NCBI GenBank assembly: GCA_020072805.1
Contig: JAIQGC010000008.1
Location: 1-56,503 of the forward strand
Source: Terriglobia bacterium
Lineage (GTDB): Bacteria > Acidobacteriota > Terriglobia > Acidiferrales > UBA7541
Direction: 5' to 3'
Length of the DNA stretch: 56,503 nt
Positions 8,423 through 25,837 of this stretch are shown here, piece after piece. The position numbers and the translations under genes were made by a program. The notes beneath the pieces are model-generated. The model searched no databases and was not told where the DNA came from. It worked only from the letters and a program-made list of their open reading frames with translations. Every line of letters starts with the position of its first letter. The first letter of the stretch is position 1.

Positions 8423-8445
8423 CCTGCCTGGGCCGGTTCGCACGC

Positions 8446-8474: not shown

Positions 8475-8548
8475 GTGGAATAGTTCCGCGTCGCCAGTAA
8501 TCCGTAGTCTAGGCCGCCACCGTCGGTAAAAAACCTGCGGGGGTCTTT

Positions 8549-9843: not shown

Positions 9844-11035
9844 GTATATCCTCAGATATGAGTCGATTCGATCTTATCGTATATGCGCAGTAATGCTCCT
9901 TGGTCACGTCGTCAAAGTATCCGCAAAGTTTCTTCCATTTGATGACAGCGAGGGCCGCGTTCAATGCGTTCAGTTCCGATATCTGGACGTTCTGGGAATA
10001 CTCATTGGCTGCTTCGCCGTCGGAGAATGCCGTGCGGCAGCGGACGTGGTCTCGCTTAATTGCAGTGCTGGTCGTAACCGTAACGATTCCGCCAAGCGTA
10101 TTGTCTTCCCCGAGCTGGATTCCCATCCCTACGTCGATGAACGGCATACCCCATTCCTGCAGCCGCTCAACGATTAGCCGCTTGCCCGTACCCTTGTCGA
10201 TGCAAATGAACACAAAGCTCATTTCCTTCAGTTGATCGACGGAGAGTTCGTCGATGAAGCAGTTGTGGGGGATAATCCTTTTCCGCATCCGCGAGTAAAT
10301 ACCCGCGAGGTAATCGACCTTCATCTGTTTTTTGCTCAGGTCCTCGAGCGACGACGCGCCGGGGCATCTAAAGGCATTGTGGTTGAGGAAAACATCGCGG
10401 TCAAAAAGGTGAATCTCTGCGACGGGCGTCTTGGCAACGAAATCAAGCACGTAGCTGCCAACTCCGCCGATCCCGATGATGGCAATCTTTGGCCCCTCCA
10501 ACTTGCGATTGGCCGCGACGATGCCCGCCTTGGTGGCTGCAGTATCGAGGTATTTGAAGACCGAATCGTCCTCTTCGTCAGCAACGACAACGGGACGAGT
10601 ATAGGGCGTGACGGTCTGATCCAGCGCCTGTGCCGGGCTGCAAATTATTGCGATGTACGTTTTGATCTTTTCGTAGTAATCCGCGTATTTGCCGGGGTTC
10701 GGTCCCGTTGTGGGCTTTCTAGAGATCTGGTGTTTGGGGACAAGCCCCTCGCCCAAGGCTTGATTTATGTTCTGGCTAACTCCGGGCAGCACGGAGCCAT
10801 GTTCGTCGCAAGGGGGTTCACCGACGAAGAAGACGACGTGCGATTCCGGAGGAATTGTCGTCTCTCCGGCGAGATCCAGCACGGATGCAATAATCCCGCA
10901 CTTGATCTCCTTCGCGGCATTCACATAGGGAACATCGCGGATGAACAAATGCTTCGACTTGCCAATTGAGATATCCAACCCCTCAGCGCGGAGTCGGCTA
11001 AGATCGGGGTTAAGACTGACCAGTCTCTGTGACAT
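9833..11035 (-). CDS. E1-like ThiF adenylyltransferase with N-terminal DUF6791-like domain
   Basis: A 400-residue protein. Residues about 1-165 form an N-terminal domain that resembles DUF6791 (SQRLVSLNPDLSRLRAEG ... HVVFFVGEPPCDEHG). Residues about 175-390 are a ThiF/MoeB/E1 Rossmann fold: nucleotide loop KIAIIGIGGVGSY (Gly188-Gly193), acidic LFDRD (Asp212), NAFR (Asn220, Arg223) and FICIDKG (Asp280). Such enzymes adenylate the C-terminus of a ubiquitin-like protein. There is no CxxC zinc pair; Cys333 (HVRCR) is a candidate thioester residue, by inference. The ATG at 11035 is preferred over the TTG at 11038. It overlaps the Ubl gene by 26 bases and DUF6527 by 11, so all three are coupled. 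Confidence 0.88.
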   Translation of the reverse strand: MSQRLVSLNPDLSRLRAEGLDISIGKSKHLFIRDVPYVNAAKEIKCGIIASVLDLAGETTIPPESHVVFFVGEPPCDEHGSVLPGVSQNINQALGEGLVPKHQISRKPTTGPNPGKYADYYEKIKTYIAIICSPAQALDQTVTPYTRPVVVADEEDDSVFKYLDTAATKAGIVAANRKLEGPKIAIIGIGGVGSYVLDFVAKTPVAEIHLFDRDVFLNHNAFRCPGASSLEDLSKKQMKVDYLAGIYSRMRKRIIPHNCFIDELSVDQLKEMSFVFICIDKGTGKRLIVERLQEWGMPFIDVGMGIQLGEDNTLGGIVTVTTSTAIKRDHVRCRTAFSDGEAANEYSQNVQISELNALNAALAVIKWKKLCGYFDDVTKEHYCAYTIRSNRLISEDIHEA

Positions 11036-11249
11036 CAAACTTCATCCCGTTCTGAGCCGGAACGCTTTTACCAGGAGTAAGGCTTCCACCCTGGTTGCCG
11101 TGGCTCCAGGTGACCGTAAAAAAAGCGTTTGGAGGAACGGGATTAAAGGCTAATGCCACGACCTGCTCGAAGGAGATCGATGGTCCCGGCACCTTCTTCG
11201 GTCGTCCATTAACAATGATATTGATCTCATTCTCACTCATAGGGCTCAT
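11010..11249 (-). CDS. Ubiquitin-like protein (single multiubiquitin-type domain)
   Basis: A 79-residue protein that is one beta-grasp domain of the multiubiquitin type: INIIVNGRPKKVPG, then SFEQVVALAF as the helix, and the closing strand GMKFDVTETGQS. It ends in Thr-Gly-Gln-Ser rather than Gly-Gly, which I believe is usual for this family. It would be the modifier activated by the downstream E1. AGGAGG is 2 bases before the ATG at 11249 and 11 before the ATG at 11240, so the shorter start (76 residues) is also possible. It is the first gene of the operon, with its own promoter about 100 bases upstream. Confidence 0.82.
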   Translation of the reverse strand: MSPMSENEINIIVNGRPKKVPGPSISFEQVVALAFNPVPPNAFFTVTWSHGNQGGSLTPGKSVPAQNGMKFDVTETGQS

Positions 11250-11352
11250 GTCCTCCTGTAAAGAGATGGGTTAGGAAAAGGCTCTACGCCCCACATGGCG
11301 ACGGCTCGTTCAAAGGCGTGGGCTACACACAAACAGCACCAAACACATTTTC

Positions 11353-11382
11353 ATCTTATGCGCGGTTAGTAGATACCGTCAA
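11353..11382 (-). promoter_or_regulatory. Promoter of the ubiquitin-like operon
   Basis: On the minus strand TTGACG and TAAGAT are 18 bases apart. The predicted start lies near 11346, with a leader of about 97 bases. It lies inside the S1-S2 interval, so the module carries its own promoter. Confidence 0.5.
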
Positions 11383-11450
11383 CAAGTAAGATATATATAA
11401 TATCAATTGTTAACTCGTGGGGCAGTATTTCATCGGCGCTAACGGGCTCA

Positions 11451-11478
11451 AGTCCTGATAAGTCGGGTTACCAGACAA
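11451..11478 (-). other. dif-like recombination site S2 (right end of Ubl module)
   Basis: Read on the minus strand: left half TTGTCTGGTAA, centre CCCGAC, right half TTATCAGGACT. The halves match S1 and S3, while the centre differs. It is inverted relative to S1, so the two bracket the Ubl-E1-DUF6527 operon. Confidence 0.65.
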
Positions 11479-11498
11479 GCGGAGAAATGGTACGGCGC

Positions 11499-11526
11499 TT
11501 GTCCGGTAAGAGCGTTTATCAGGACT
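11499..11526 (+). other. dif-like recombination site S3
   Basis: Left half TTGTCCGGTAA (identical to S1), centre GAGCGT, right half TTATCAGGACT (identical to S2). It faces S2 head to head across 20 bases, forming an inverted repeat with 32-base arms and 25 matching positions (11450-11527). Confidence 0.65.
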
Positions 11527-11572
11527 TTAGGTTGATTGCAACCGTCCAGAAGGGTGTTCCTTGGGAATGCAG

Positions 11573-12442
11573 TCAACTCGGTTTGTGTTCAGCAGTAGTG
11601 TTTGAGCCTAGTTGTGGAGCAACATCTTCCATGACGTAATGCACAAATTTTGCTCCCAAATCCGTTAAAACATAATACTCAGTATCATCAAACGCTGACT
11701 TCATGACGTTCCCTGCGGGTTGTTTACGCCCCGGTGATTCTTTCTTCACGAAATTTCCATACCCGTCCGTTTGACGTTCCTGTCTAATGACGCCGCCCGT
11801 GCTGAGGTCTCGGATTAGATATTTGAACAAATCAGCTTCATATGAGTCTTCACGCGGCCTTGGTTTTCCTCGGATTGCATTCCAAAGTTGCCCACGCGTT
11901 ATCCGATGGTTTCTGTAAATTGCCCGGACAACTACGAAGTGGGTTTCGTGATAAAGTTCAACCCAGTGAAGAAAAAGTCGGATAAGGTCATCATCGCAAA
12001 GCTGAATAGCACCCGCATTCATTATAAGTCTCTTTAACATCTGTTTTTTCTCTTGTGTGTCAGCTTCATCCCAAGAACGGAATGTTCTTCGCACCAGAGC
12101 CAGATATTCAGGAGACTCAATCCGTTGTTGTATTTGGTCGCCGAAATTGTCTAGGCGATGGAAAATATCGGCTAGGGCATCGCGGAGTTCGGCTATCTTC
12201 CCTTTGTGCTCTTGCAGCCACACCTGTTGAAGGTCATTGATGCCTTGCTGCTCACGCTCTGCTGCGAGACTGGCTGATGCAGCGATGAAACCACCAATCC
12301 AAGGAATACTGCCGAGTGCTGCTATGAGGAAGCGAACGTACTTTCGATTTTTACCTTGGGAGAGGCGCTGTACCAACGTTTCCTGAGAGAGCTCGACAAG
12401 CTCTGCTTCAGTGATCTTCAATTCACTCTTATCGTCCTGCAC
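11573..12442 (-). CDS. Unknown protein with a hydrophobic segment, second module
   Basis: A 289-residue protein I cannot assign. An N-terminal helical part (TEAELVELSQETLVQRLSQG) is followed by a Gly/Ala-rich hydrophobic stretch (about 38-65, RFLIAALGSIPWIGGFIAAS) that could insert into or touch the membrane. The rest is helical with a winged-helix-like region (about 170-265) including ITRGQLWNAIRG and YYVLTDLGAKFVHYV. It starts with GTG at 12442, with GAGG eight bases upstream. It forms a two-gene unit with the 78-residue protein and lies between sites S3 and S4. A defence or toxin role would be a guess. Confidence 0.7.
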   Translation of the reverse strand: MQDDKSELKITEAELVELSQETLVQRLSQGKNRKYVRFLIAALGSIPWIGGFIAASASLAAEREQQGINDLQQVWLQEHKGKIAELRDALADIFHRLDNFGDQIQQRIESPEYLALVRRTFRSWDEADTQEKKQMLKRLIMNAGAIQLCDDDLIRLFLHWVELYHETHFVVVRAIYRNHRITRGQLWNAIRGKPRPREDSYEADLFKYLIRDLSTGGVIRQERQTDGYGNFVKKESPGRKQPAGNVMKSAFDDTEYYVLTDLGAKFVHYVMEDVAPQLGSNTTAEHKPS

Positions 12443-12483
12443 GAGTCGTCCTCAAGCCAAAATTGCAATCACGTCTGTGAATC

Positions 12484-12720
12484 TCAAGTAGTTCTCAGAC
12501 AGTAATTCCGAAACCACTCTCTTGCCTCCGCTGTGGTATCAAACTCAGCCAAAACCTCATCTGGCACACCGGGAGGATTTGGCTTAACAATTTCATGCTT
12601 ATTCGAAAATGGATTCGGGTGATAGTACATGTTTGCCAACATCCCCGTATATGGATTGACTAGATTTACGGAGTTCGGACCTGAGCCTGGACGATCCATG
12701 TGCCCGGTTGCGTCTGACAC
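12484..12720 (-). CDS. Small protein of unknown function (78 aa)
   Basis: A 78-residue soluble protein starting with GTG at 12720; AAGGAG lies 7 bases upstream and decides the start. It has a Pro/Asn-rich middle (NPYTGMLANMYYHPNPFSN) and an acidic C-terminal helix (EVLAEFDTTAEAREWFRNY). Unrecognised. It precedes the 289-residue gene by 41 bases on the same strand, so the two probably form one operon, which may act as a pair. Confidence 0.65.
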   Translation of the reverse strand: MSDATGHMDRPGSGPNSVNLVNPYTGMLANMYYHPNPFSNKHEIVKPNPPGVPDEVLAEFDTTAEAREWFRNYCLRTT

Positions 12721-13088
12721 GAGTAACTCCTTTCAGGCTTCGAACCATGTGGTTTGGGACAAAGCCTAGCTTGCTTGACTCCTTATGGTCAATAATTGTT
12801 TACGCGCCTCCAAGTAAATTGCCCACATCTTTATGCCTCCAGCTTAGGACAAGGTTAGCATTCACATGTCCGATGAGTGCGTTTATCTGACATGTGGATT
12901 ACTTTAGGATGGAAATCGAACAAGAGCAGCGACGGATCTCACCGAAAACAAAATAGGGGGCGGGTAAGTTGACAGACCGGAAGTTCCTGGATCTTGTGGA
13001 AAACTAACCTTCGGAATCGTGCCAGTGTCTTTGACCTCTGTAAACTGTTTGCCAATAAACATATGTTGACACCTGGAGGAGGGCTGCA
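12721..13088. other. Intergenic region containing site S4
   Basis: There is no gene in this 368-base gap. It holds site S4 and, at its right end, the strong Shine-Dalgarno (GGAGGAGG) of the next gene. Promoters for the two divergent flanking genes should lie here, but I see no convincing match. Confidence 0.5.
12866..12893 (+). other. dif-like recombination site S4
   Basis: Left half ATGTCCGATGA, centre GTGCGT (identical to S1), right half TTATCTGACAT. The outer arms CACATGTC (12863-12870) and GACATGTG (12889-12896) are a perfect 8-bp inverted repeat. It has the same orientation as S1 and S3. Confidence 0.6.
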
Positions 13089-14243
13089 ATGGAACAAAGT
13101 CGCAAGATCACGCGCGCGGAGCTTTATGAGAAGGTGTGGAAGACTCCTATGCAAAAGTTAGCTGCCGAATTTGGTCTCTCTGACGTCGGCCTAGCTAAAC
13201 TGTGTAAGCGTCATCAAATTCCAGTACCGGGTCGCGGGTATTGGGCTCGGCTTCAATTCGGACAGAAGCCAACGCGCACGCGATTGCCGAACATTGCCGA
13301 TGTCGCGCTCGATAGCATCTTGATTGTTCCACATGAGAAACGACCACCGGAAATCCCACGACTAATGCCAAATCAACCCGCTCCTGTAATCGAGATATCA
13401 GAGAATCGCTCGATAACGCACCGACACGTTCTTCGCGTTGATAAATCTATCCTAAGATGTAAAAAGGACAAACGCGGCATGCCCGTTGCTAAACAGGGAA
13501 GATTGGTGCCAGTGGACGTATCCTTAGAATCTCTACCGCGCGCATTACGAATCTTGGATGCTCTGTTTGATGCCCTCGATGGCGCTGGGTACTGCATTGA
13601 GTGGGGCAGTCCTTACACCTCTCCAGTCAATGTGATCGTGCTCAACGAGAAGATCACCCTGTCGATATCAGAGATAATCGAACGGAAGCAGCACAAAATT
13701 ACGCTGGAGGAGACTTCGCATCAAAAGATTGACAGTTGGTGGAGTCCTCCTAGGTGGGATTACACGCTTACCGGGCGACTCAAGTTCACCCTCCTTTCGA
13801 CCGAGGCTTCGCATCTTCAACATACCTGGGCTGACAGAAAGAAACAGAGCCTAGAAAGCCGAGTTGGTGAAATATTCTTGTCGTTTGAGTTCACAGCAAA
13901 CTCAGTGAAGAAATACCGAGAAGATTGTGCGGAGGCTGCACGGCAACGAGCTGAAGAACAAAAACGAGCTGCAGAACGGCGAAGGCAGGAGGAGGAATAC
14001 AATCGCAAGTTCGAGGTTGTGAGTAAGTTTGCTCACGCTTGGCGGGAAGCCGTGCAATTGCGCGAGTTTGCAACCTCCTTGAAAAAAAGTGCAGGGTCGC
14101 CTGCTGTTCCCCTCGAGCAAAAGTTGGCAATTGTGAGAATCCTCGATTGGATTGAAAGACATGCTAATTACATTGACCCGCTCACGGATGTCGGTGAGAT
14201 AATCCGCCGATTCAAGAAGTCGGAATGGCAGTGGAACTACTGA
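13089..14243 (+). CDS. Conserved protein of unknown function with basic N-terminal HTH-like region
   Basis: A 384-residue protein. The first 60 residues (KITRAELYEKVWKTPMQKLA, then LSDVGLAKLCKRHQIPVPGRGYW) are a conserved motif found at the start of many uncharacterised bacterial proteins and look like an HTH of the transposase or resolvase kind. A charged coiled coil (about 280-315, AARQRAEEQKRAAERRRQEE) follows a beta-rich middle. The ATG has GGAGGAGG ten bases upstream. It is convergent with the nuclease-helicase gene, whose stop it overlaps by 7 bases. Homologues often occur in variable islands; function unknown. Confidence 0.72.
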   Translation: MEQSRKITRAELYEKVWKTPMQKLAAEFGLSDVGLAKLCKRHQIPVPGRGYWARLQFGQKPTRTRLPNIADVALDSILIVPHEKRPPEIPRLMPNQPAPVIEISENRSITHRHVLRVDKSILRCKKDKRGMPVAKQGRLVPVDVSLESLPRALRILDALFDALDGAGYCIEWGSPYTSPVNVIVLNEKITLSISEIIERKQHKITLEETSHQKIDSWWSPPRWDYTLTGRLKFTLLSTEASHLQHTWADRKKQSLESRVGEIFLSFEFTANSVKKYREDCAEAARQRAEEQKRAAERRRQEEEYNRKFEVVSKFAHAWREAVQLREFATSLKKSAGSPAVPLEQKLAIVRILDWIERHANYIDPLTDVGEIIRRFKKSEWQWNY

Positions 14244-16126
14244 AGACGGGGAGCTAGAGGGCTAGCAACCTCTAGTTCGGGTAGAGCATTTCTAAAATGT
14301 CGTTCTGTCTCCCCATCCATAAAATTGACATATACCCCTCGATGTGCGCGGGACATCAGAACGCGGTATACGTGCTGAAGATGTCGAGTTAACTCCGGAT
14401 TGTTTCTTTTTACTTGAGTATCGTGGGAATTCTGCGGATTGCTTATCCATTGATTTGTGGTGGGATCGTACGTGAGATCATTTCCAAAAATTACTCCGAT
14501 ATAGTCATATTCAAAGCCCTGAGCCGTATAAACCGTACCGACTTGATCCATTCCTGAATCATCGGTAGCCCATTTCCAAAAGGCGTCTTTCCTTTCCCAC
14601 GGCATAGCAAATTCACCGATTTGAACGTCTTTTACGAGGCCGCCATCAGTCTTGGAATTGCTCCAAGGCCAACAAAATCCCGCTACAATGCGGGCTGAAT
14701 TCTTCTTTTCTGCGTTTCTTTTATTAATTTCATCTACCATCTGCGAAGGGGATGAAAATATCTTGAATTGCATCCGAGCATCAAAAGCCACGTTTTCCGA
14801 ATCCGTGATACCCAAGACCTTATCGAGCCATTGCAAATAGGCATCAGAACCAGAACAACGAAACTGTGTTTTTAGTTCGAATTCAGCGATATCGCCAGTT
14901 TCAATTCCAAATCGCGCGGCAGCCTCTTTTATTAAGGCTATGCTCCCGATTTCCGTCGGCCTCACAATTTGATTTTCGTCAATAAAGAAAATGTTTAGTT
15001 TGGCAACGCGGAACAATTCGTCGATCTGCGGGTCGTTTGAACGGCTTTCGCGGAGGGTATACCGGCTATTGCTGGTTTTTCGGATGCGGTGTGCTTCATC
15101 GCAAATAAGGATTTCGATCGAGTTGGCCTCCGTCGTGGCAAAGCTGTTAAAGAAACTGAATAGGCGTCGGGCTCGAGGGCCTACTATCTTTCGGAGGGTG
15201 TTAGTAAATGCGCTTGAACCAGTTGCGTGAAAGACGATCTTGTCTTGTCGCATCAACTCTCCCATCACCTCTAATGCGATGACCGACTTTCCTGTACCAG
15301 GTCCACCCTTAACAATCACGGCAGACTTCCTGCCCGTTTGGGATAGATGTTTTGCTTTGTGCATTATGGAGTTATAAGCTGCAATCTGGTCGTCAATGAG
15401 ATTGAATATCTGCTGATTGTTGATCATTTGACTTGTGTGTTCAAGCAGCTTCCTTGAGGGGCGAATTGGGCTTGTAACAAAACGGCCAAATACATCTAGC
15501 CCATTTCCTTCGGAAAGACGCGCACGCAAATACGCACCCAAATTCTGTACGTCTTCTTTTGCAAATACCGGAAAAGAATCAGTCGTGGTTTTAAATTTAG
15601 AGGAAAAGAGGACAGGATCGGGCCCTTCACGCGAATAATTGTGACAATAGGCGCAGGAATTCAGGCTAATCTTCGGTTCTTCACCAAACACAGAAAGAAA
15701 ATCGATTAGATCGAAGTGATACCCTTGGACTTGGAGCGAGGGATGAGCTTGTTCTTTTCTGAATCTGCCGTAGTCGACAAGAATATTTCCTTCAGTGGGG
15801 CAATCCTCTACATTGTCATTGGACCATTGCTTCAGTTCAATTAACACGACGCTGTCACTCTTGAGGTAATCACGGCCAAAAATTAAGGTATCAATACGCC
15901 GTGTAGAGTATGGGAGTTCGTATTCGATGATAATGCCGTTGTCTTGGAGGCGGCTGTATTCAAAGGCATTCTTAAGAAAAAGCAGAGATTGCTGCCATGC
16001 CCTGAATTCTGATTGGTTTGCCGCTCTTTTGTAATACTGTTCGTATTTCGTGGCAATCTGATCTGCGATTGCATTGTGTAGCACAGCTTGATTGAAGTCG
16101 GTGATGGTCCCTTCGTATAAGCGCAT
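14237..16126 (-). CDS. Nuclease-helicase fusion (PD-(D/E)XK plus DUF2075)
   Basis: A 629-residue protein. The N-terminal part (about 40-110) looks like a PD-(D/E)XK nuclease: RRIDTLIFG gives Asp79 and VVLIELKQW gives Glu97-x-Lys99. The C-terminal part is a DUF2075-type superfamily 1 helicase: Walker A GGPGTGKS (274-281), DEAH box ILICDEAHR (343-346), and late motifs VYTAQGFEYDYIGV and YRVLMSRAHRGVYV. A CxxC lies at NSCAYCHNY. Such proteins recur in defence islands, so restriction of foreign nucleic acid is plausible but inferred. The ATG at 16126 has GGGAG about nine bases upstream; a GTG at 16144 is possible. Confidence 0.85.
   Translation of the reverse strand: MRLYEGTITDFNQAVLHNAIADQIATKYEQYYKRAANQSEFRAWQQSLLFLKNAFEYSRLQDNGIIIEYELPYSTRRIDTLIFGRDYLKSDSVVLIELKQWSNDNVEDCPTEGNILVDYGRFRKEQAHPSLQVQGYHFDLIDFLSVFGEEPKISLNSCAYCHNYSREGPDPVLFSSKFKTTTDSFPVFAKEDVQNLGAYLRARLSEGNGLDVFGRFVTSPIRPSRKLLEHTSQMINNQQIFNLIDDQIAAYNSIMHKAKHLSQTGRKSAVIVKGGPGTGKSVIALEVMGELMRQDKIVFHATGSSAFTNTLRKIVGPRARRLFSFFNSFATTEANSIEILICDEAHRIRKTSNSRYTLRESRSNDPQIDELFRVAKLNIFFIDENQIVRPTEIGSIALIKEAAARFGIETGDIAEFELKTQFRCSGSDAYLQWLDKVLGITDSENVAFDARMQFKIFSSPSQMVDEINKRNAEKKNSARIVAGFCWPWSNSKTDGGLVKDVQIGEFAMPWERKDAFWKWATDDSGMDQVGTVYTAQGFEYDYIGVIFGNDLTYDPTTNQWISNPQNSHDTQVKRNNPELTRHLQHVYRVLMSRAHRGVYVNFMDGETERHFRNALPELEVASPLAPRLQ
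14254..14275. terminator. Hairpin at the convergent gene junction
   Basis: CTAGAGG (14254-14260) pairs with CCTCTAG (14269-14275) around an 8-base loop. It sits just after the stop of the rightward gene and inside the end of the leftward one. There is no T-tract, so termination is uncertain. Confidence 0.3.
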
Positions 16127-16293
16127 GATTGGACGATCTCCCACACCTTTGCCATGTTGTCACTTAGAAAGACCAGGCCCCTGGCTCGCCAGAAGTTATC
16201 ATAATCCTCTAGTTAACGCACTGAAGGGGCAGCTGATGGCGGGGCCCACCAGGTAGATAGGCCAATTTTCATTCAGAACGCTTCTACCGATGG

Positions 16294-16482
16294 CTAATTG
16301 GGCTGCTTCCCCTTTACCGGAGACTCGCTCTTCAGCTTCTTGACGCGCTCCAAGACTTCAGCCCCGTTCAAGATGCCCTTTTCTGCTAACAATTCGAAGA
16401 TAGCTTCAGTGAGAAACATGTTGTAGACAGCAATCTCGTCCGGCGTAGCAGTCGTCATTTCCGTTTTGTCGTCTTGTTTCAT
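16294..16482 (-). CDS. Small acidic-basic protein of unknown function (62 aa)
   Basis: From the ATG at 16482, with GAGGA upstream, the product is 62 residues with one amphipathic helix (EIAVYNMFLTEAIFELLAEKG) and a Lys-rich tail. The frame extends to a GTG at 16536 (80 residues), but without a good ribosome site. Unrecognised. It could be a small regulator or antitoxin-like protein; there is no partner beyond position. Confidence 0.5.
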   Translation of the reverse strand: MKQDDKTEMTTATPDEIAVYNMFLTEAIFELLAEKGILNGAEVLERVKKLKSESPVKGKQPN

Positions 16483-16680
16483 CAAGTCCTCGCCTTGCCG
16501 GCATTGACGGCGTATCTTGGCGAGAGTATTGTACACGCAGTGGACAATCTAACGGATAACTAATATTGGATATATCTGACACTTACCTAACGACAGCAAC
16601 TGACGAGTAAAATGGAACAAGATAGTAGAAAGCAGTCGAGTCTGACTTTCAAGAATAAGACATAGATCAAAGGAGTCCAC

Positions 16681-16878
16681 ATGAATACCAAGAAACCATT
16701 CTTGCTTTCATCTATGGTTCTACTGGTTGTGATTGCCCTGCTTTTACAGATCACACCGGTATCCATGGAAGCGTACTATGCAACCTGTACCGGAGCTGAT
16801 CCTTGCCACGCATGCAAGAACTGCAAATACTGCAAGCATTGTGCGCAAGAGGGCGGCACCTGCGGAGTGTGCAAATAG
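16681..16878 (+). CDS. Small membrane or secreted Cys-rich peptide (CxxC array)
   Basis: A 65-residue peptide with AAGGAG seven bases before the ATG. Residues 7-28 are hydrophobic and form a signal peptide or anchor. The rest carries eight cysteines, five of them in regular CxxCxxC spacing (Cys42, 45, 48, 51, 54; PCHACKNCKYCKHC), then Cys61 and Cys64. That spacing suits metal clusters or multiple disulfides. I recall similar unnamed peptides elsewhere but know of no function. It is convergent with cas1, 27 bases away. Confidence 0.65.
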   Translation: MNTKKPFLLSSMVLLVVIALLLQITPVSMEAYYATCTGADPCHACKNCKYCKHCAQEGGTCGVCK

Positions 16879-16905
16879 TTCGGGTGTTGGTATTGAGAAT
16901 TCGGC

Positions 16906-18447
16906 TTAGCTGGCCGAGATCTTTACAAGTGCGGCTAGAGTGAGCCAATGCCTCGGATGTGGAATGCATCGACCAGCACGAATATTCGTGGCATAAGGCT
17001 CCGAAACATGGAGCGCGGCCAATATCGTCGGTACAGTGACTTTTGCGAGCCGAGGCTGAATCTTCTCGCAATAAACTCTTTCGTCTAGCCAGTCTGGTTT
17101 GTCCGATGGGTTCCACGCCCTCAACGCAGCTGCTTGCCGACGCTGTGTGGTAGAGCGTAGTGCCTGGGCCTTTGCACTAACCGTCGCCGCCCGCCCTGAC
17201 TTTGCAGCCTCAACCAGATTTTCCTTCGACGCGGTTATGGCGCAGGTTCGACAGTATTTATCCCCAAACTTGATTTCCACTCCGCAAATGCGACAAACAG
17301 CTGATGTGCGTGGAGTGGGCTCATCGGGTAGATCGAAGGAACCACCTTTCACTTGGCGACGCCTACCTTGGGTTAGCCTTGTAGGAGGATGAGAATGGCG
17401 ACTGGGTTTCTGTATTGTTGACCAAAGTATGTGAGAAATCCGCTCGGCAAACGGAGCAACATGCTGACGCCACATTGCTGTGGTTTCAGAGAGTCGGGCT
17501 GCAAACGATCCCATCAAGCGACAGCTGCCGTCCCTTTGCTCGAAAAACCATTCGCGGCGTAGCGGTTCTTGAGTGATCCAATCGAGAACGAAAGCGTCAA
17601 CTTTTGGCCGGACCGCCTCCATTAGATCGCACGCCAAACTAGCGCGCGCAGGGGTGTCTACGTGCAACACACCAACGCCTGGGTCAAGCCCAAGGGCAGA
17701 AAGAGCTAAACTGGCTTCAGATTCGAGTAGGGCGTAAAGGTAATTGAGCATTGCGTTCGGTGGATTAACCGCGAGGCGAGGCGACCCAGACAGCGGTGAT
17801 TTACGGGCGTTAAATACGCGCCAATGTTCGGAAATTCGAGGCAAATCCTTTCTTGGATATGTGATCGGAAGATGATGCCAAGCTGTCCAATACGTTGCGG
17901 CTGCATGCGATTCGAAGAGCCGAATATCCTGAAATGTCTTGGCTTTGGAAAGAGCAACAATTAGACCGGAAATCGTTTGTGCCGCAGCCTCATTTTTCAA
18001 GCGATTGCGGACAAGCTGCTCCTGGCCAGCCAGTTTGTGGCCTATCAATTCCTGTGCAATTCGAAAGGCACTTCCTGATTGGTGGGCTAGCGATTGCGCT
18101 CGTCGCAGTCGTGCGTCGGATGGTCGCACCGGGCCGGTTGTCACAAGAACTTTACCGATTCGGTCGAGCATTACAAACGCGGCGTCTTGATCGGCCAACC
18201 ATCGGAGAGCCGCGAGTGAAACCAGTCCGTCCGAACCGATTACCACGAGACGACGCAGACCGTGGCCTATGCGGGGCAGTCGCGTTTCACGCCGGGCAGC
18301 ACCGATCCCGTCCTGAATCGTCAAGTGTCCACGATCAACGTGCACTTTGATCCCGTAGCCGAAGAGTGTTATGACACCTTGTCGCAGAAGGATTGGAACA
18401 AAATTGCAGTGCTGAAGAGATTGAGGTACGGTCGGTGAAGCTGCCAT
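16906..18447 (-). CDS. cas1: Cas1 integrase with C-terminal zinc finger and HTH (casposase-like)
   Basis: A 513-residue Cas1. The N-terminal beta domain (about 24-110) has YGIKVHVDRG and the GSDGLVSLAALRWL strand-helix. The catalytic alpha domain keeps the metal triad: Glu179 (FESHAAATYW), His262 (GVLHVD) and Asp274 (LACDLMEAVRP). Unlike ordinary CRISPR Cas1, it continues with a Cys4 zinc finger (Cys385, 388, 399, 402) and a C-terminal HTH (about 465-510, TILAALHVSEPYATNIRAGR). A C-terminal HTH is typical of casposases, which insert casposons. There is no cas2 and I see no CRISPR array. It is divergent from an operon with PolB and HNH. Casposase activity is inferred; no Shine-Dalgarno is obvious at the ATG. 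Confidence 0.9.
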   Translation of the reverse strand: MAASPTVPQSLQHCNFVPILLRQGVITLFGYGIKVHVDRGHLTIQDGIGAARRETRLPRIGHGLRRLVVIGSDGLVSLAALRWLADQDAAFVMLDRIGKVLVTTGPVRPSDARLRRAQSLAHQSGSAFRIAQELIGHKLAGQEQLVRNRLKNEAAAQTISGLIVALSKAKTFQDIRLFESHAAATYWTAWHHLPITYPRKDLPRISEHWRVFNARKSPLSGSPRLAVNPPNAMLNYLYALLESEASLALSALGLDPGVGVLHVDTPARASLACDLMEAVRPKVDAFVLDWITQEPLRREWFFEQRDGSCRLMGSFAARLSETTAMWRQHVAPFAERISHILWSTIQKPSRHSHPPTRLTQGRRRQVKGGSFDLPDEPTPRTSAVCRICGVEIKFGDKYCRTCAITASKENLVEAAKSGRAATVSAKAQALRSTTQRRQAAALRAWNPSDKPDWLDERVYCEKIQPRLAKVTVPTILAALHVSEPYATNIRAGRCIPHPRHWLTLAALVKISAS

Positions 18448-18671
18448 TGGAGTCTAAGCCTCCCTTGGTAGTGAGGGCTTGTCGTCTGCTACCAACAGGC
18501 GGCAGGCCCGCTTTTCCCTGTATTTTATCAGCTTTTGGAGGATTCCTGTTCACTGAATTTAAGTGGCGGGAGGGGCTACTCAACGTGAGAATTTTTGATT
18601 TTCCGAACTGAAGCGCACTGTCTCCTCCGACGCCTAGCAAGGGATGAATAGATCCGATAAAATTGCGCCAC

Positions 18672-19499
18672 ATGTTTGCCGACTATAATCCTATGTTCCC
18701 TCCACGTCCCTTCTGGTTTGTAAGCACGGAATTGTTGACTAAGGTCTGGCACGCTGAAATCAGTGTGGTGACAAAACTTCTAGCTAAGGACCCCGACTTG
18801 CCTAAACTGTTTGATGCACCCGAAGCTACGGTTCCGCAGCGTACCGCGTGCTTCGCGCTGCTGGCGCATCGCAAGCTGATCGAGATTATCGACGAGACGC
18901 TCATAGGACGTTATGAAAACTCACCCTCCCTAGACGATGTAGAGTCAAACACAATCAAGCGCACGCACAATCTTGTTGCGGTAGACGCGCCCCTCTGGGC
19001 GCTGGAGATGCAGCAAGTAGTGGAGCGGCTGCCAGCCCACATCTACAGTTCGCTGCCGGAACCGCTCCGCAAGGGAGGCTTTGGCTCTAACCCAGAAAAC
19101 GCTGAACAAATGCGAGAAATTCAGTCTGCTAAAAGCACATTCAGCAATGTCGAACAACTTCAAGCCTTAACTGAGCGAGTACTCGATCAGCAGTTGAGGC
19201 GTTTAGGCGGTCGTTGGTCATCCGTTCAAGTCCAGAGATCGCAGAAGCCGAAAGGTCGGCGAACGCGTGATAAGGAGCGGATGCGTAGGGATAAGATGAT
19301 TGCTGAAATAGATGATGTTGGCGAAACAATCGGTGAATTCCTAAAACTGATGGACGAACGCAAAGTTAAGCCCCAGCCGACCTGGAGCGGCTGGCCGGGA
19401 TTGTGGGCACAGGCTTATAGGAATCCACGACTTCGGAAGCTCATCCACAAAGACAAGTCCCGGGCTCTGGCACGCGTCCGGCGTGAACGCAATAGATAG
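18672..19499 (+). CDS. Unknown protein, first gene of the PolB operon
   Basis: A 275-residue soluble protein I do not recognise. The first 170 residues are helical with many Leu/Glu; the last 100 are strongly basic (KPKGRRTRDKERMRRDK and KDKSRALARVRRERNR), which suggests nucleic-acid contact. The ATG at 18672 is chosen over a TTG at 18663; neither has a clear Shine-Dalgarno. It is divergent from cas1 across about 220 bases that must hold both promoters. It ends in TAG, so TAG acts as a normal stop in this element. Confidence 0.65.
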   Translation: MFADYNPMFPPRPFWFVSTELLTKVWHAEISVVTKLLAKDPDLPKLFDAPEATVPQRTACFALLAHRKLIEIIDETLIGRYENSPSLDDVESNTIKRTHNLVAVDAPLWALEMQQVVERLPAHIYSSLPEPLRKGGFGSNPENAEQMREIQSAKSTFSNVEQLQALTERVLDQQLRRLGGRWSSVQVQRSQKPKGRRTRDKERMRRDKMIAEIDDVGETIGEFLKLMDERKVKPQPTWSGWPGLWAQAYRNPRLRKLIHKDKSRALARVRRERNR

Positions 19500-19648
19500 C
19501 TCACGATCTGCCACTCTCTGCTCTCTCTCCGAAGAGAAAAACTGTGACATCGATAAAGCCTTAATTATGTGTCGTTAGAGAAGACTTTTTCGCCTGCCAA
19601 TCGGCACGAACACTAGACGTGTCCGACAGGACGAATATCCTGCGGAGC

Positions 19649-20122
19649 ATGAAACGTAGGAGATTCACAAATTCGGCCAGGCAGCGAGCCCTAGCGGTAC
19701 TTGCGCGGATGCGCAGCCGGGGAGAGTCGCTTTCTCAAGCCGCACGTCTTGAACACACTACACCACGGACAGTGCTGAGGATCATTGCAAAACAATTCAA
19801 GCGAAGTAGCTCGGGACGCTACACAGCTACACGCAGAGACACACTACGACGCGATTTGAGGGTCTTGGGCTTCGACGGTTACGTACCGGTTGTCGTTCGC
19901 TCATCGAATCAAGCACATCTTGCCTCGGTGCATTTGGTTGCGGTCAGTCGGTTCCTAAGAACCGGGGATACCGAATGGCTCAAGCCTTTCATCGGGAAGC
20001 GTGTCGGTGGCGTCGAATTGCTCACCGATCCCGACCGTCTTCAGATTTTGGCAGACGCTGACTTGGTCAAGTTGGATGGGCTCTATCGCAATCATCGTGG
20101 AGTGAAGGAGGCGTCGGTATGA
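19649..20122 (+). CDS. Helix-turn-helix protein of the Cas1-PolB element
   Basis: A 157-residue protein with an N-terminal HTH (about 10-50, GESLSQAARLEHTTPRTVLRI) and a conserved C-terminal part (GFDGYVPVVVRSSNQAHLAS ... FIGKRVGGVELLTDPDRL). I have seen relatives only as unnamed proteins. HTH proteins accompany casposases in casposons, so a DNA-binding helper or regulator role is likely. A GTG at 19619 would add ten residues. It overlaps the HNH gene by 4 bases (ATGA). Confidence 0.7.
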   Translation: MKRRRFTNSARQRALAVLARMRSRGESLSQAARLEHTTPRTVLRIIAKQFKRSSSGRYTATRRDTLRRDLRVLGFDGYVPVVVRSSNQAHLASVHLVAVSRFLRTGDTEWLKPFIGKRVGGVELLTDPDRLQILADADLVKLDGLYRNHRGVKEASV

Positions 20123-20469
20123 AGCTGCCCCACAGTCCGGCCCGTGCCGCGAGGCGCGAGGTCGAAGCGCAAGAGCATAACGGAACGGACCAGCCCCGCT
20201 GCATCTACTGCGGAAACGTCGATCCTCTTCTGGTGCGTCCGCGTCGAATCGAGAATCACCACATGTTCAGTCGTGACCGAGACCCCTTTGAAGTCCCCGC
20301 TTGCCTGAATTGCCATGCAGTTGCGCACGAGGATTTGCGGGACGCTGACGTACCAATGACCTGCGAGAAAGAACCAACCCAATTTGCTCGGGCAATCTTC
20401 CGAGCATTAGCCGTCCATTTCACACTGCTGGCCAAAGCGTGCTGGCGATTTGCGAGGAGGATGCAATGA
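20119..20469 (+). CDS. HNH-type endonuclease of the Cas1-PolB element
   Basis: A 116-residue protein with a compact HNH-like zinc fold: CIYCGN (Cys28, Cys31), then RIENHHMFSRDRDPFEVP with the His pair, and CLNCHAVAHEDL (Cys62, Cys65, His70). HNH nucleases belong to the recurring casposon gene set. Its ATG overlaps the previous stop and its TGA overlaps the next ATG, so it is translationally coupled on both sides. The exact cleavage role is unknown. Confidence 0.8.
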   Translation: MKLPHSPARAARREVEAQEHNGTDQPRCIYCGNVDPLLVRPRRIENHHMFSRDRDPFEVPACLNCHAVAHEDLRDADVPMTCEKEPTQFARAIFRALAVHFTLLAKACWRFARRMQ

Positions 20470-22382
20470 TTCACGATCTCTATCTGCGGGCGCACATCGT
20501 TGTCTCCGGCGATAAGAAAAAGCAAGCAGAACAGCCAGCTAAGCGCTTGGGTTCGCCCAAACTGTGGCCTGATTACGCTCTCGTCTGGGATACGGAGACA
20601 TCGCTTGATCTTGAACAGACGCTTAATTTCGGCATCTGGCGTTTTTGCCAGCTTAGGGGCACAGAGTACGTGGCCGTTCAAGAGGGAATGTTCTATCGCG
20701 ATGGGCTTGCTCGTAAAGATATTCAGGCGATTCACGCCTATCAGCAAAAGCATCTCGCGGACCGACTTGCAAGCGGTGCAGACACAGAGCTAACCGTGCT
20801 CTCCCAAACAGCGTTTGTCGAGAAGGTATTTTGGGAATGCGTCCGCGCCGGTGCGCTGATCGTAGGCTTTAATTTGTCCTTTGACATCGCCCGCATCGCT
20901 GTGCGTTGGACAGTCGCGCGTAATGGCGGATTCTCTTTTGTTCTCAGCCAATTGAACAAAAAACAGGTCGAGAATCAACACCGTCCGCGCATCCGGATTG
21001 CACCTTTGAATGGTGTGGCTGAACAGATCGAATTAACCGCTGTACGGCGGAAAGATGAGCAGCACAGGTGGCGTCGCAGCCGTTTTCTGGATTTGCACAC
21101 GCTTGCGTTTGCATTAACGGATAACAGCTATTCGATGGCTGGCGCAATTCAGGCGTTTGGTTCCATACCGGAAAAGATGGAGCACGAACCGACTGGACTT
21201 ATTACCGAGAAGGAAATCGCCTATGCACGTCAGGATGTTCGCGCTACGCTCGGCTTACTCAACGCCTTAAGACATGAGTATGAGCTGCATCCGATTGCTC
21301 TACTACCGGACCGAGCCTACAGCCCGGCGTCCATCGGCAAAGCGTATCTGCGCGCAATGGGAATTGTGGAGCCGATGCGGAAGTTTAAGGACATCGCGCC
21401 CAAGATTCACGGAATTGCAATGGCAGCGTATTACGGCGGGCGCGCCGAATGTCGTATCCGGCGTTGGCCGGTGCCCGTAGTACCAGTTGACCTAACGAGT
21501 GAGTATCCGAGCGTTGACGCGCTGCTCGGCATCTGGGATGTGCTGACGGCGGCGCGGCTAACGACCGAGGACGTGACGATGGACGTACGGGCGCTGTTGA
21601 CCAACGTAACCTTGGATAAATTGTTCCATCGTGCTTCCTGGAAGCGGCTCAACTTCTATGCGCGAATCATGCCAGAGGGCGATATTCTGCCAGTCCGATC
21701 CGTGTACGGCGGCAAGTCCGGCACCTGCAACATCGGTTTAAACGCACTTAACTGGAAGCAGCCAATGTGGGTTGCCGGACCTGATCTAGTCGCCAGCGTA
21801 CTATTGAGCGGCCATACTCCAAATGTCCTGGAAGCTTTTCGCATTGTTCCGCGAGGAGAGCAACATGGCCTCAGGCCGATCGAGCTGCGTGGCGCTATTT
21901 CCGTTGATCCTAGAAAAGAAGATTTCTTCACCCGTGTTATCGAGTACAGAAAACAGAATAAGGCTAATGACCGCCTGCAATATTTCCTTAAAATCCTGGC
22001 GAACAGCACATCCTATGGAACCTATCTCGAATTGAACCCGGCAAAAATTATCGCGAACAACCGCCCCAAGATTACAGTCTATTCTGGCGAGCATATATTC
22101 AAGCAGCCTGCCCCGAATACTATCGAGCGGCCTGGCATCTTTTACTTTCCCCTGCTCGGGGCTCTGATTACGTCGGGCGGCCGCCTGCTACTGGCGATGA
22201 TCGAGCGTTGTGTTCGGGATGCTGGCGGGACGTATTTGTGTTGCGATACGGATGCTTTGATTATCGTCGCGAGTAAAGCTGGCGGAATAGTCCAGATGCC
22301 AGATCATGCTTCCCCGATTAAGGCTCTCTCGTGGAGAGAAGTCGAGCAGCTTGGGAGCCGATTCGATTCGCTTTCCCCGTAG
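20466..22382 (+). CDS. Family B DNA polymerase, exonuclease and palm part, ended by in-frame TAG
   Basis: A 638-residue product from the ATG at 20466 (GGAGG six bases upstream, overlapping the HNH stop). Proofreading motifs: ExoI WDTET (Asp42, Glu44), ExoII GFNLSFD (Asn136, Asp140), ExoIII YARQD (Tyr253, Asp257). Polymerase motifs: A DLTSEYPS (Asp342), B KILANSTSYG (Lys509, Asn513, Tyr517), C CCDTDA (Asp594, Asp596). All catalytic residues are intact. It stops at TAG 22380-22382, but the same frame continues for another 332 codons with conserved sequence. It would copy the element DNA, as proposed for casposon polymerases. No terminal-protein priming motif was identified. Confidence 0.9.
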   Translation: MIHDLYLRAHIVVSGDKKKQAEQPAKRLGSPKLWPDYALVWDTETSLDLEQTLNFGIWRFCQLRGTEYVAVQEGMFYRDGLARKDIQAIHAYQQKHLADRLASGADTELTVLSQTAFVEKVFWECVRAGALIVGFNLSFDIARIAVRWTVARNGGFSFVLSQLNKKQVENQHRPRIRIAPLNGVAEQIELTAVRRKDEQHRWRRSRFLDLHTLAFALTDNSYSMAGAIQAFGSIPEKMEHEPTGLITEKEIAYARQDVRATLGLLNALRHEYELHPIALLPDRAYSPASIGKAYLRAMGIVEPMRKFKDIAPKIHGIAMAAYYGGRAECRIRRWPVPVVPVDLTSEYPSVDALLGIWDVLTAARLTTEDVTMDVRALLTNVTLDKLFHRASWKRLNFYARIMPEGDILPVRSVYGGKSGTCNIGLNALNWKQPMWVAGPDLVASVLLSGHTPNVLEAFRIVPRGEQHGLRPIELRGAISVDPRKEDFFTRVIEYRKQNKANDRLQYFLKILANSTSYGTYLELNPAKIIANNRPKITVYSGEHIFKQPAPNTIERPGIFYFPLLGALITSGGRLLLAMIERCVRDAGGTYLCCDTDALIIVASKAGGIVQMPDHASPIKALSWREVEQLGSRFDSLSP

Positions 22383-23381
22383 AATCGCAAAATTGTCCCA
22401 CATCTTCTACGACTCACGGATGAAAATTACGATAAGAATGGTGGTCAGCACCAACTTTTTGGCTTGTCGATGGCGGCCAAACGCTATGCCCTCTACACAA
22501 CGAAATGCGGCCACCGATATTGCAGTCATCGCAAGTGCGTCGCAATTGCTGACCCCAAAGCCCATGGCCTGATCTTTCTTGCGCCGAGCGATGAGCGTGA
22601 GAGCGGCCTGCCGAAATGGTGGTGGGAATTGTGGCGTTTTCTTCTAGCGCTCGAATTTAAACAGATTATAGATCCAGATTCTAATGTTCTGATGGTTGTC
22701 GGGCGTGCCATAAATACTGATACAGCTGCCGATATCGATGGCCTGCCATCATGGATTGTTCTACCCGCAATGATGAAAATGAGAATCTCAACGCCCCATT
22801 ATTTCAACCAGATGAAAGGTAAAGCCAGCCCATTCGGATTCGTTTTACATCCTCGAACGAGTGACAAACTGAAGCTTACCCTGCTGACCCCGTTCAATAA
22901 AAACCGCGCGACCTGGGCGCGTTCCCGGTGCATCAACACGCATGACGGAAAAAGCCATCGTCTGGACAAACTCTCGCGAAGAGATATTGTCACTCTGGGA
23001 GACATTTTGTGCGGCTATATCCAGCACCCTGAAATCAAATCGCTCGGGCCGGACGGAGAGAAATGCAAGGCTCATACACGCGGGTTGCTGCGCCGGATGA
23101 CGATTAGCGGCGGTTTACAGCATTGTATTGGAAAAGAAGTTTCGCGGTTTGAACAAGGTGAGTACGATTTCATCGAGAACATCGATGACGTGTGTATTCA
23201 TTATGACGGCGGGCTGGTTTCTGCAAATAAGAGTTTGATCGCAGAGATCAGAGCACTTGGGTTGCGAAAAACAACCAAAGAGACGGGGCTTGATCGCAAA
23301 ACGATTCGCGGAATTCTGAATAGAAAGAAGGTGAAAGCCTCGACGCTCGCGAAAGTGGTGATCGGGATGCGACAGGAATAG
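22383..23381 (+). pseudogene. C-terminal part of the family B polymerase, downstream of the in-frame TAG
   Basis: This is the same frame as the polymerase. It reads on from the TAG as NRKIVPHLLRLTDENYDKNG and then LFGLSMAAKRYALY, the usual junction between palm and thumb in this family, and ends with a basic HTH-like tail (LGLRKTTKETGLDRKTIRGI, about 45 residues). The usual residue at the stop would be Tyr (PYNR), a single-base change from TAG. If translated separately, the first start is TTG at 22464 or ATG at 22470. Readthrough, a disabled gene, or a sequencing error are all possible. The terminal stop is also TAG. Confidence 0.8.
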
Positions 23382-23463
23382 GTCATCCTTATTCCAAGTA
23401 GCGGAAGCGGCTCCTTGCCCCCCTAGGCGGGTACGCGTCTCAAACTCCGATGCATACACCACT

Positions 23464-24876
23464 TCAGTGACACATACCGAGATACAGCTGTTCCCCTAAA
23501 GTATCTGGCACGACAGACTGCCATCCGCTCTCAACATCGCTCGAAGCAATCGCATTGCCCCCGGCTGCGTTGTACTTGAGAAAGGACAGCTCATTGATTC
23601 TCTTCATGTGGCAGTCTACGGCGTATTGTTCTACCGTATAAGTACCTTTAGCCGTCGACCTTGTATCGACTTCCTTAACCCAAAATCGCGCCGAATCGGA
23701 ACCAGCAAATTCAGCGGTTTGGCTATCAAGATGAAGCTCTCCGTTAGGGCCTTTCGACGCGAGATGCCAACGATCAAGAACCTTTCGTCCGTAAGCAAAT
23801 CCGTTAGTTGCACGTTGATAATCCGTAATCGCTTTCCTGAAATCACCCAGCTTTAGGTATGTATTCCCGCGTTTTACTAAGAGGTCTGGAATCAGGAACG
23901 TATCGAAGTCCTCGCGACTCAGGTCCTTTAGTTGTTTCGCAAAATCTTCATATTTCAAGTTACGAAAAAACATCTCGTGCAATTTCCTGCAGAGCGCGTC
24001 ATCGGACACGTTCTTATACTCCGGGTAGAGCCGCTTCACCTGGGGAATATTCATGAGGAAAATCTCTTCGCCGATGAGCAGCTTAATAGCTTGGGTGTAA
24101 TCCTTTATAGCTTGATCGTAGTTTTTGACCTTCACGTATTCGTCGGCCCGATTCTCGTATGATTGTTTTAGGCCCGGATCACCAAGCTCTTCTTTATTTT
24201 CGATAGCGCTGCTAAAGTCGGAGATTGCGGAGTATGAATCTTTTAACTCTGATTTCGCTAAAGCCCGGTCATTATATGCGCCACCCGCTTTCGGGTCGGC
24301 CTCGATCACCCTATCGTAATTCTTGATTGCTTCCCGATATTGTTTTTCCTCGTAGTAAATTTCTGCTCGTTCCGCATACCCTGGCGCAAAATGAGGATCG
24401 ATTTGAACTGCTCTGTCGTAAGCGGCTAAAGCTTTGGTTCGTTTTTCAGGTGCATCGGCATCCGTTCCAAACAAAACCCCAAGAGTACTCATGTAAGATT
24501 TTCCAAGAAAATAATGAGGAAGCGGCGATCTCGGATTCAACGTGGCCGCTCGGCTAAAATCTTGAATTATCTGTTGGGCATATTCATTTCCCTTGGCGAA
24601 TCGTTGAAAAACAGAATAATAGAGACCTCTGAAAAGATAGACGCGATAATCAGCGGGATATTCCTTAATCAGTTGGTCCAGATCAGGCTTGTGCCACGAG
24701 CAAGGCTCTGATTTATTTTCCGGTGCGACTCCGCCGGAATTCAGAAGGTTATCCGCGTTTCGAACATTAGCTGAAATCGCAAAATACAGGTCATCGACAG
24801 CCTTCTTGTGGTCACCCGAGTCGTATTGGACCTTTGCTTTCATCACTCTCAACTCAGACTCAGAAATCAGTTTCGC
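23464..24876 (-). pseudogene. TPR-repeat protein, C-terminal part downstream of an in-frame TAG
   Basis: The frame continues directly from the upstream part across TAG 24879-24877 (AKLISESELRVMKAKV...). It holds about six tetratricopeptide repeats (for example AAYDRAVQIDPHFAPGYAER, AIKNYDRVIEADPKAGGAYN, AIKDYTQAIKLL), which form scaffolds for protein contacts. If independently translated it would start at TTG 24852 or ATG 24843 without a good ribosome site. It is convergent with the polymerase gene. Its relation to the Cas1-PolB element is unclear. Confidence 0.7.
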
Positions 24877-25272
24877 CTATGCGTCCGCTGACTTCTGCAA
24901 CTGAATAATTGTATCGATATCACTAATATTGATTGGAACGTCCTTGGCATTAATCTCGCAGGAAAATAAGATACGCGAGGAAAGAGCATCAGGGGACGCT
25001 GGAAACTCCTCGATCAGCGCATCTACTGCTTCCTTCGCTTTACGTAAAATCAGTGGATCGTTACCCTGAGGTAAAATACCCGCTAGCCGTTTCTGGACTT
25101 CAGAAGGTTCGCTAAACGCCTTCGGCTTACCTGTGAGTTCTAACGGTTCCACTATCCCTGGAATTACCGTGCTGCCAGAACGGGGAGTTTGCGAATGAGT
25201 TGGCGCCGCAAGAACCGAAATTAGCATCGCAAGGGCTAAGATGTATACTCGCGGCTTCGAGAGTATTAACAT
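24877..25272 (-). CDS. TPR-repeat protein, exported N-terminal part, ended by in-frame TAG
   Basis: From the ATG at 25272 the product is 131 residues, with a signal peptide (KPRVYILALAMLISVLAAPTHS) and one helical-repeat region (LILRKAKEAVDALIEEFPAS). The stop is TAG, and the same frame continues for 470 codons of TPR sequence, so the intact gene would encode about 600 residues exported to the periplasm. The open frame reaches 25377, but the signal peptide favours the inner start. The Shine-Dalgarno is weak. Confidence 0.6.
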   Translation of the reverse strand: MLILSKPRVYILALAMLISVLAAPTHSQTPRSGSTVIPGIVEPLELTGKPKAFSEPSEVQKRLAGILPQGNDPLILRKAKEAVDALIEEFPASPDALSSRILFSCEINAKDVPINISDIDTIIQLQKSADA

Positions 25273-25431
25273 CACAAGTAGATGCTCCAGTGCTGCGTAT
25301 TCTACCCCAAAATGATAAAAGCCGGAACTATCCTGCGAACGAACACGCCAATCCTTCTTTGAAAAGTGGGCAGACATTGGAGTTCCCGCGTGATGCCCGA
25401 GATGTCCTGCTTTCGAGATGGGCGGGGGGGA

Positions 25432-25482
25432 GGGGTGGTCCCTTTTTCCCGTCCCTATCCGCTATCCCGTCAAACCGGGCGC
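25432..25482 (-). repeat. Dispersed repeat, right copy
   Basis: The 37-base arm (25432-25468) is the reverse complement of the arm at 8386-8422 with one mismatch. It is followed by the 14-base core GTCAAACCGGGCGC (25469-25482) in direct orientation. It marks the right side of the accessory region, as the first copy marks the left. Confidence 0.85.
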
Positions 25483-25564
25483 GGGGTGAACAGCAGTGCC
25501 GCCCTGAAGTTGCCCCGCCCGGGGGTAGGTATCTGGAAATTGCTTCTTCTCGGAAAAAATGCGG

Positions 25565-25641
25565 TGGTGCGCCCGGAGAGACTTGAACTCCCAACCCTCT
25601 GGTTCGAAGCCAGATGCTCTATCCAATTGAGCTACGGGCGC
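25565..25641 (-). tRNA. tRNA-Arg (anticodon TCG)
   Basis: Acceptor stem GCGCCCG/CGGGCGC, anticodon loop CTTCGAA (anticodon TCG, reading CGA), T-loop AGTTCAAGTCT, and encoded CCA at 25565-25567. tRNA 3' ends are common integration targets of casposons and islands. I found no second copy of its 3' end. Confidence 0.96.
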
Positions 25642-25649
25642 GCGAAGCC

Positions 25650-25655
25650 ATTATA
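25650..25655 (-). promoter_or_regulatory. -10 element of the tRNA-Arg promoter
   Basis: A perfect TATAAT on the minus strand lies 8 bases before the tRNA. The matching -35 would fall inside site S5, with no strong hexamer there. Confidence 0.5.
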
Positions 25656-25657
25656 CA

Positions 25658-25685
25658 ACTCCCGATAAGTTGAATTACCGAACAA
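25658..25685 (-). other. dif-like recombination site S5
   Basis: Read on the minus strand: left half TTGTTCGGTAA, centre TTCAAC, right half TTATCGGGAGT. The halves match S1-S3, and the centre is of the S2 class (ending AC). It is inverted relative to S1, S3 and S4 and overlaps the tRNA-Arg promoter. It is the rightmost site. Confidence 0.6.
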
Positions 25686-25789
25686 GTGAACTCTCCGCGC
25701 AGTGCCACCAGCGCACGTGCATGAACTTCGCGGGCATCCCAGTAGCAAATTGCACTAAAAATGATGCAAAAAGGGGCAGTTTTGAACGG

Positions 25790-25814
25790 CCCTATCTCCT
25801 ATCCCGTCAAACCG
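25790..25814 (-). repeat. Dispersed repeat, partial third copy
   Basis: CCCTATCTCCTATCCC followed by GTCAAACCG matches the inner part of the right copy (25454-25477) with two mismatches. It lies just outside site S5. Confidence 0.6.
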
Positions 25815-25837
25815 CGATGGCTGCGTGATGTGCCCGC

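Follow-up and report, generated by a model that had tools for sequence, protein, structure and literature searches.

A 17.1-kb bacterial casposon beside the rodZ promoter of a Terriglobia bacterium, from a clade that appears to target sigma70 promoters

The window, that is the whole stretch of DNA analysed here, comprises 56,503 nucleotides (contig C54) of the 3.98-Mb genome of a Terriglobia bacterium. It encodes the only Cas1 of this genome, at 16906-18447 on the minus strand. The gene is intact and its product matches the Pfam Cas1 family (E 5e-41). A first-pass annotation of the DNA had described a Glu-His-Asp triad, a zinc finger and a C-terminal HTH domain, and these are borne out by alignment and modelling: E179, H262 and D274, together with E277, do not vary in 31 aligned relatives, the CxxC...CxxC finger (C385, C388, C399 and C402) is nearly invariant among the 31 aligned proteins, and the C-terminus is helical in an AlphaFold model (mean pLDDT 81.5). 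The best match of the model in the PDB is the Methanosarcina mazei casposase (6opm), with the Archaeoglobus fulgidus Cas1 a close second.

Diverging from cas1, on the plus strand, are genes for an HTH protein that is kept in related casposons (19619-20122), an HNH-type protein recognised by its sequence motif and by tblastn (20119-20469), and a B-family DNA polymerase (20439-23381). The HNH-type protein has tblastn matches in five related loci (L177, L187, L190, L201 and L203), and its position between HTH and PolB is conserved. These three proteins of the divergent operon in the first-pass annotation are confirmed, the polymerase by its motifs Exo I, A, B and C, but its reading frame is broken by a single in-frame TAG at 22380-22382. 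The B-family assignment rests on the motifs and on a PF03175 match to the polymerase of one relative (L166), since a profile search against the PDB returned no match. Motif C reads DTDA in the window copy versus DTDS in relatives. As the TAG falls on the position of the tyrosine of the LNPY motif, found in 17 of 17 polymerase relatives, the window copy is probably decaying; this is the simplest reading, with sequencing error as the alternative. Even with its polymerase truncated, the copy may still be movable by Cas1. The first gene of the operon (18663-19499, plus strand), called a basic unknown in the first-pass annotation, is lineage-specific, with homologues in no relative, and was rejected as a core gene.

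An inverted-repeat search around this core found arms at 8385-8445 and 25409-25469 (E 2e-9), both overlapped by a 17-bp exact direct repeat. Comparison with relatives resolves these into a 14-bp target-site duplication (TSD) and a 37-bp terminal inverted repeat (TIR) starting GGGATAG. On the left, promoter side the TSD GTCAAACCGGGCGC (8372-8385, plus strand) is followed by the TIR GGGATAGCGGATAGGGGCGGGAAAAAGGGACCACCCC (8386-8422, plus strand), which has one mismatch to the right arm (25432-25468, minus strand); on the distal side an exact copy of the TSD follows at 25469-25482 (plus strand). The extent first proposed, 16906-23381, is thus far too small for an element that runs from 8386 to 25468. 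The first-pass annotation had suggested looking between 14 and 26 kb for inverted repeats and 13-16 base duplications; the left end lies outside that range. Judged from its sequence, the element is a 17.1-kb bacterial casposon. Casposons are recognised by a Cas1 with its catalytic residues outside any CRISPR locus, by terminal inverted repeats with a target-site duplication and by a family B DNA polymerase gene of their own; each of these is found here, though the last is interrupted in the window copy. No tyrosine or serine recombinase or other transposase domain was found in Pfam scans of the larger ORFs of the element.

A generic scan of the fetched loci for 12-mer direct repeats adjoining an inverted repeat, with no particular sequence required, matched almost exclusively casposon loci, and nearly all of the duplications were of 14 bp and started with GTCAA on one strand. 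The TIR pattern is also specific: in its longer consensus form it matched about 40 ends, spread over 28 of the 250 genomes of the class, whereas a reversed control pattern matched none. A short motif, CTATCCC-GTCA, was discarded as a MITE marker; its matches fall by chance in coding sequence and lack the longer TIR.

Besides its core, the casposon carries cargo. On the minus strand there are ORFs at 8549-9223 and 11573-12442, a DUF6527 protein (9391-9843), a protein with DUF6791 and ThiF E1-like domains (9833-11038) and a helicase-like protein of Schlafen group 3 that weakly resembles candidate defence proteins (14237-16144); a further ORF lies on the plus strand (13089-14243). The minus-strand TPR protein at 23464-24852 is probable cargo, with homologues in one related locus (L176) and inside the casposon of another (L182). 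The DUF6527 and DUF6791-ThiF pair (9391-11038) may form an operon for ubiquitin-like conjugation or for defence, and the names of the families suggest a defence role for the cargo. Schlafen cargo recurs near casposases: in L189 (386-3731) a homologue of the helicase adjoins a second cas1.

A tRNA-Arg gene lies about 80 bp past the distal end of the casposon. Its proximity had been pointed out in the first-pass annotation; it is neither boundary nor target, the target being the rodZ promoter at the opposite end. Its 3'-end was rejected as a target site, as that end is not copied elsewhere and the real TSD is elsewhere. Adjoining the tRNA is the relict end of a second casposon-type element (25675-25819, minus strand), with a TIR GGGATAGGAGATAGGGCCGTTCAAAACTGCCCC at 25773-25805 followed by GTCAAACCGCGATG at 25806-25819; the same end is present in two genomes of the same genus (L107 and L108). 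Its TSD is related to that of the complete casposon, with GTCAAACCG in common, which suggests that an earlier element had entered at this rodZ site. A search with the TIR consensus found no partner end for it. A complete mini-element bearing tRNA-Arg, from 25483 to 25805, was considered and rejected, its left TIR being no better than shuffles. Within the casposon cargo, 25 bp at 12733-12757 are 80% similar to the anticodon region of tRNA-Arg and may have been left by another integration.

Six Cas1 sequences used as queries against 84,980 genomes yielded 58 loci, of which about 46 are from Acidobacteriota (Terriglobia, Edaphobacter, Granulicella and soil MAGs in the named records) and one from a Chloroflexi MAG (L203) that carries HTH, HNH and PolB; the rest are distant Cas1s, several of which adjoin CRISPR arrays. 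A maximum likelihood tree places 30 acidobacterial casposases and the Chloroflexi sequence in one clade (support 100), and this clade, the M. mazei casposase and the A. fulgidus Cas1 are split (100) from the remaining sampled Cas1s, including ones beside CRISPR arrays. The phylogeny that had been proposed as a check places the window Cas1 outside the sampled bacterial CRISPR Cas1s; the protein belongs with about 45 Acidobacteriota casposases. That Cas1 might be a stray CRISPR adaptation gene adjoining an unrelated PolB island, as the match of generic CRISPR Cas1 models to it could imply, we consider exceedingly improbable: no subtype model scores above its cut-off, the genome has no second cas1, and the tree puts the protein outside the sampled bacterial CRISPR clades. 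Such an origin would be supported by relatives located at CRISPR arrays, or by relatives devoid of PolB and TIRs, and the opposite is seen, the order PolB-HNH-HTH-Cas1 recurring in relatives together with TIR and TSD. The absence of CRISPR noted at first holds, no CRISPR-type repeat being seen across 12-27 kb of the window; what would mark a CRISPR-Cas adaptation module (cas2, repeats, or a Cas1 inside a CRISPR subtype) is not what is found here.

Mobile boundaries occur in the window and in at least 14 homologous loci. Of the two circumstances that would have refuted the casposon-like locus of the first-pass annotation, a Cas1 grouping inside a CRISPR subtype and a lack of mobile boundaries in every homologous locus, neither applies, the first as judged from the bacterial CRISPR clades sampled, and the interpretation is supported. 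Movement is seen at a tRNA-Gln site, where one genome (G337) has a clean empty site for the element of two others (G094 and G163), with a single target copy and joined flanks that align unbroken over 359 bp, an exact empty site for a relative. Another genome (G155) has at this site a stub of about 140 bp only; in L221 (about 1357-1499) such a stub is MITE-like and has a casposon right end at the tRNA-Gln promoter. Two Edaphobacter genomes, G233 and G329, have flanks of 98% identity to either side of the tRNA-Gln promoter site and yet carry different casposons next to the promoter, of 9.9 kb in one and 16 kb in the other. Beyond these, both genomes have one and the same older element, which abuts the newer casposon head to head with a TSD in common. 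This is recent mobility, with entry on the promoter-proximal side. No exact empty rodZ site was found among relatives, the nearest of which are about 50% identical in RodZ, so that comparison at rodZ is limited to the promoter and gene order. For the window copy, the signs that bear on mobility are promoter conservation and a gap: rodZ and a GGDEF gene (27378) are neighbours in several relatives and 19 kb apart in the window. Searches of plasmids and viral contigs found no casposons at useful identity, and the M. mazei casposase had no match in viral contigs.

Some elements with casposon ends are without cas1. One genome (G398) has elements of 2.9 kb and 1.5 kb and another (G494) one of 1.4 kb (L107 5045-7902, L112 4024-5546 and L113 2010-3396), with TSDs that are exact or near-exact in the 2.9-kb and 1.4-kb elements and imperfect in the 1.5-kb one. 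All three lack cas1 and polB, and the 2.9-kb element encodes a Cys/Met PLP enzyme. No Cas1 match was found in the genomes G398, G451, G494 and G155. Such elements probably move in trans, or are relics. A 5.3-kb element in L037 (5129-10402) has its right TIR at the truncated N-terminal end of cas1; N-truncated cas1 genes are also present in L038, L039 and L040, and resemble deletion derivatives.

The initial GTCAA of the TSD is TTGAC on the opposite strand, where it belongs to the -35 box of the rodZ promoter (8348-8376, minus strand; -35 TTGACA at 8371-8376, a 17-bp spacer and -10 TATAGT at 8348-8353). This promoter lies about 63 bp ahead of the start of rodZ, identified by PF13464 and PF13413, and the same promoter precedes rodZ in 16 of 19 element-free relatives. 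Elsewhere in the clade, the sites are the tRNA-Gln promoter (L035, L038, L039 and L205), the promoter of an ORF whose N-terminus identifies it as valS (L036, L177 and L178), and that of an M20-type peptidase-like ORF (L107 and L108). When promoter-side flanks are aligned, GTCAA is the strongest part of the site motif, and a second conserved block appears at about -25 to -19 (permutation p 0.0004), which is the -10 box on the opposite strand. A promoter was found at 13 of 18 casposon sites versus 24 of 795 background GTCAA sites, taken from whole loci, intergenic and other, and the distal ends of the same elements serve as an internal control. Ends defined by the TIR pattern only (24 promoter-side, 17 distal and 6 other) were pooled with TSD-defined sites and deduplicated. 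With a -10 box counted as TAnnnT with at least four matches to TATAAT, 18 of 26 promoter-side ends have one (at a distance of 17 bp in 14 cases and of 18 bp in the other 4) versus none of 16 distal ends (Fisher 5e-6). Where a promoter-side end lacks the -10 box, it is in some cases a tandem junction with the TIR of a neighbouring element in place of the box, and at some sites the box is weak (L037, L041, L164 and L182).

It is possible, though rather unlikely, that the casposase reads GTCAA alone, promoters being a by-product of TTGAC in intergenic DNA usually being a -35 box and of insertions on the promoter-proximal side being the ones that are tolerated. The strength of GTCAA in the motif agrees with this, as does the known need of casposases for the first TSD bases. 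Against it stand the -10 box, which most promoter-side ends have at 17-18 bp and distal ends lack altogether, and the place of the casposon at these sites, on the upstream side of the promoter. We therefore favour the reading in which this casposon clade appears to target sigma70 promoters, with the element on the upstream side and the host gene unbroken, which is apparently new; in the literature searched, which covers few subscription journals, nothing links casposons to Acidobacteriota or to promoter targeting. For the window, a 17.1-kb casposon at the rodZ -35 box, with recognition of the sigma70 core promoter and promoter-proximal reuse of the site, is very likely the best explanation. 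The more general proposition is likely, if held less firmly: that the casposase of the clade targets the sigma70 core promoter (duplicating the -35 box, with the -10 box as leader), that promoter-anchored arrays grow with CRISPR polarity, and that cas1-less cargo elements spread.

Characterised casposases produce 14-bp TSDs with conserved first leader-side bases, and require an upstream leader motif (PMC6614799, PMC6977970). The window clade fits this scheme, with the promoter seemingly taking the role of the leader. A Cas1 oligomer would join the GGG... ends to both sides of a 14-bp stagger, and the core promoter would be recognised through TTGAC in the promoter-proximal end of the TSD and through the -10 box 17 bp further on. 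The reader of the promoter could be the HTH domain of Cas1 itself, the separate HTH protein, or bound RNA polymerase. The version in which integration is guided by RNA polymerase or sigma factor bound at the promoter, and not by DNA reading by Cas1, seems unlikely to us; it would account for selection of the complete core promoter geometry and for several of the promoters being those of housekeeping genes (rodZ, tRNA-Gln and, by its N-terminus, valS), but the M. mazei and Aciduliprofundum boonei casposases pick their sites on naked DNA (PMC6977970, PMC6614799). As most of the -35 box is duplicated within the TSD, the host gene would keep a working promoter and the casposon would be harmless upstream of it. 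A later insertion would reuse the regenerated site, promoter-proximal to older copies, as new spacers are added at the CRISPR leader. PolB would presumably act on the excised element, filling it in or replicating it, and may have a role in copying or repair.

CRISPR adaptation has been proposed to descend from casposons. Those of bacteria had been described in only a few genomes, and their targets were ill defined; the present analysis adds a large clade of bacterial casposons whose ends are defined, a target rule that is sharp and testable, and strains that differ by one insertion. The bacterial family 3 includes AceAut-C1 and NitAL212-C1 (Krupovic 2014, PMC4046053), was described in 2014 from four elements only, none of them from Acidobacteriota (PMC4046053), and is reported at intergenic sites (PMC6614799). 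The window casposon has the features that characterise family 3, a bacterial host and HNH and HTH genes of the kind that family 2 also has, with the same Cas1, PolB, HNH and HTH core, TIRs and TSDs, and its Cas1 has a C-terminal zinc finger and HTH, as the Cas1 of AceAut-C1 has a zinc-binding domain and HTH fused C-terminally (PMC4046053). We therefore call it family-3-like, an argument from gene set, host and C-terminal domains made with a tree that contains no family 3 reference Cas1. Unlike the described family 3, the clade comprises about 45 loci with a GTCAA TSD and a sigma70 promoter target. The archaeal host and tRNA 3'-end target of family 2 are not found here, the relatives being Acidobacteriota and the site the rodZ promoter; family 2 targets tRNA genes at their 3' ends, and the TSD in M. 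mazei is of the CGCA type. Shared with M. mazei (family 2) and A. boonei (family 4) are the 14-bp TSD with conserved leader-side bases and the upstream leader motif; tandem insertions are shared with archaeal families 2 and 4, the C-terminal HTH of Cas1 with family 2, and 6opm is the closest structure. Like Tn7-type site-specific transposons, the clade inserts beside an important host gene, presumably without harm, but the enzymes are unrelated, and Tn7 inserts at the end of glmS whereas the window clade inserts upstream of many promoters. With CRISPR-Cas adaptation the clade shares the chemistry of Cas1 and new insertions that adjoin a promoter-containing leader; it differs in having no Cas2, repeats or effectors, in inserting whole elements and not spacers, and in the promoter being directed away from the element. 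Stacking beside a promoter appears, on our analysis, to be new, and would be a natural parallel to the leader-end growth of CRISPR arrays.
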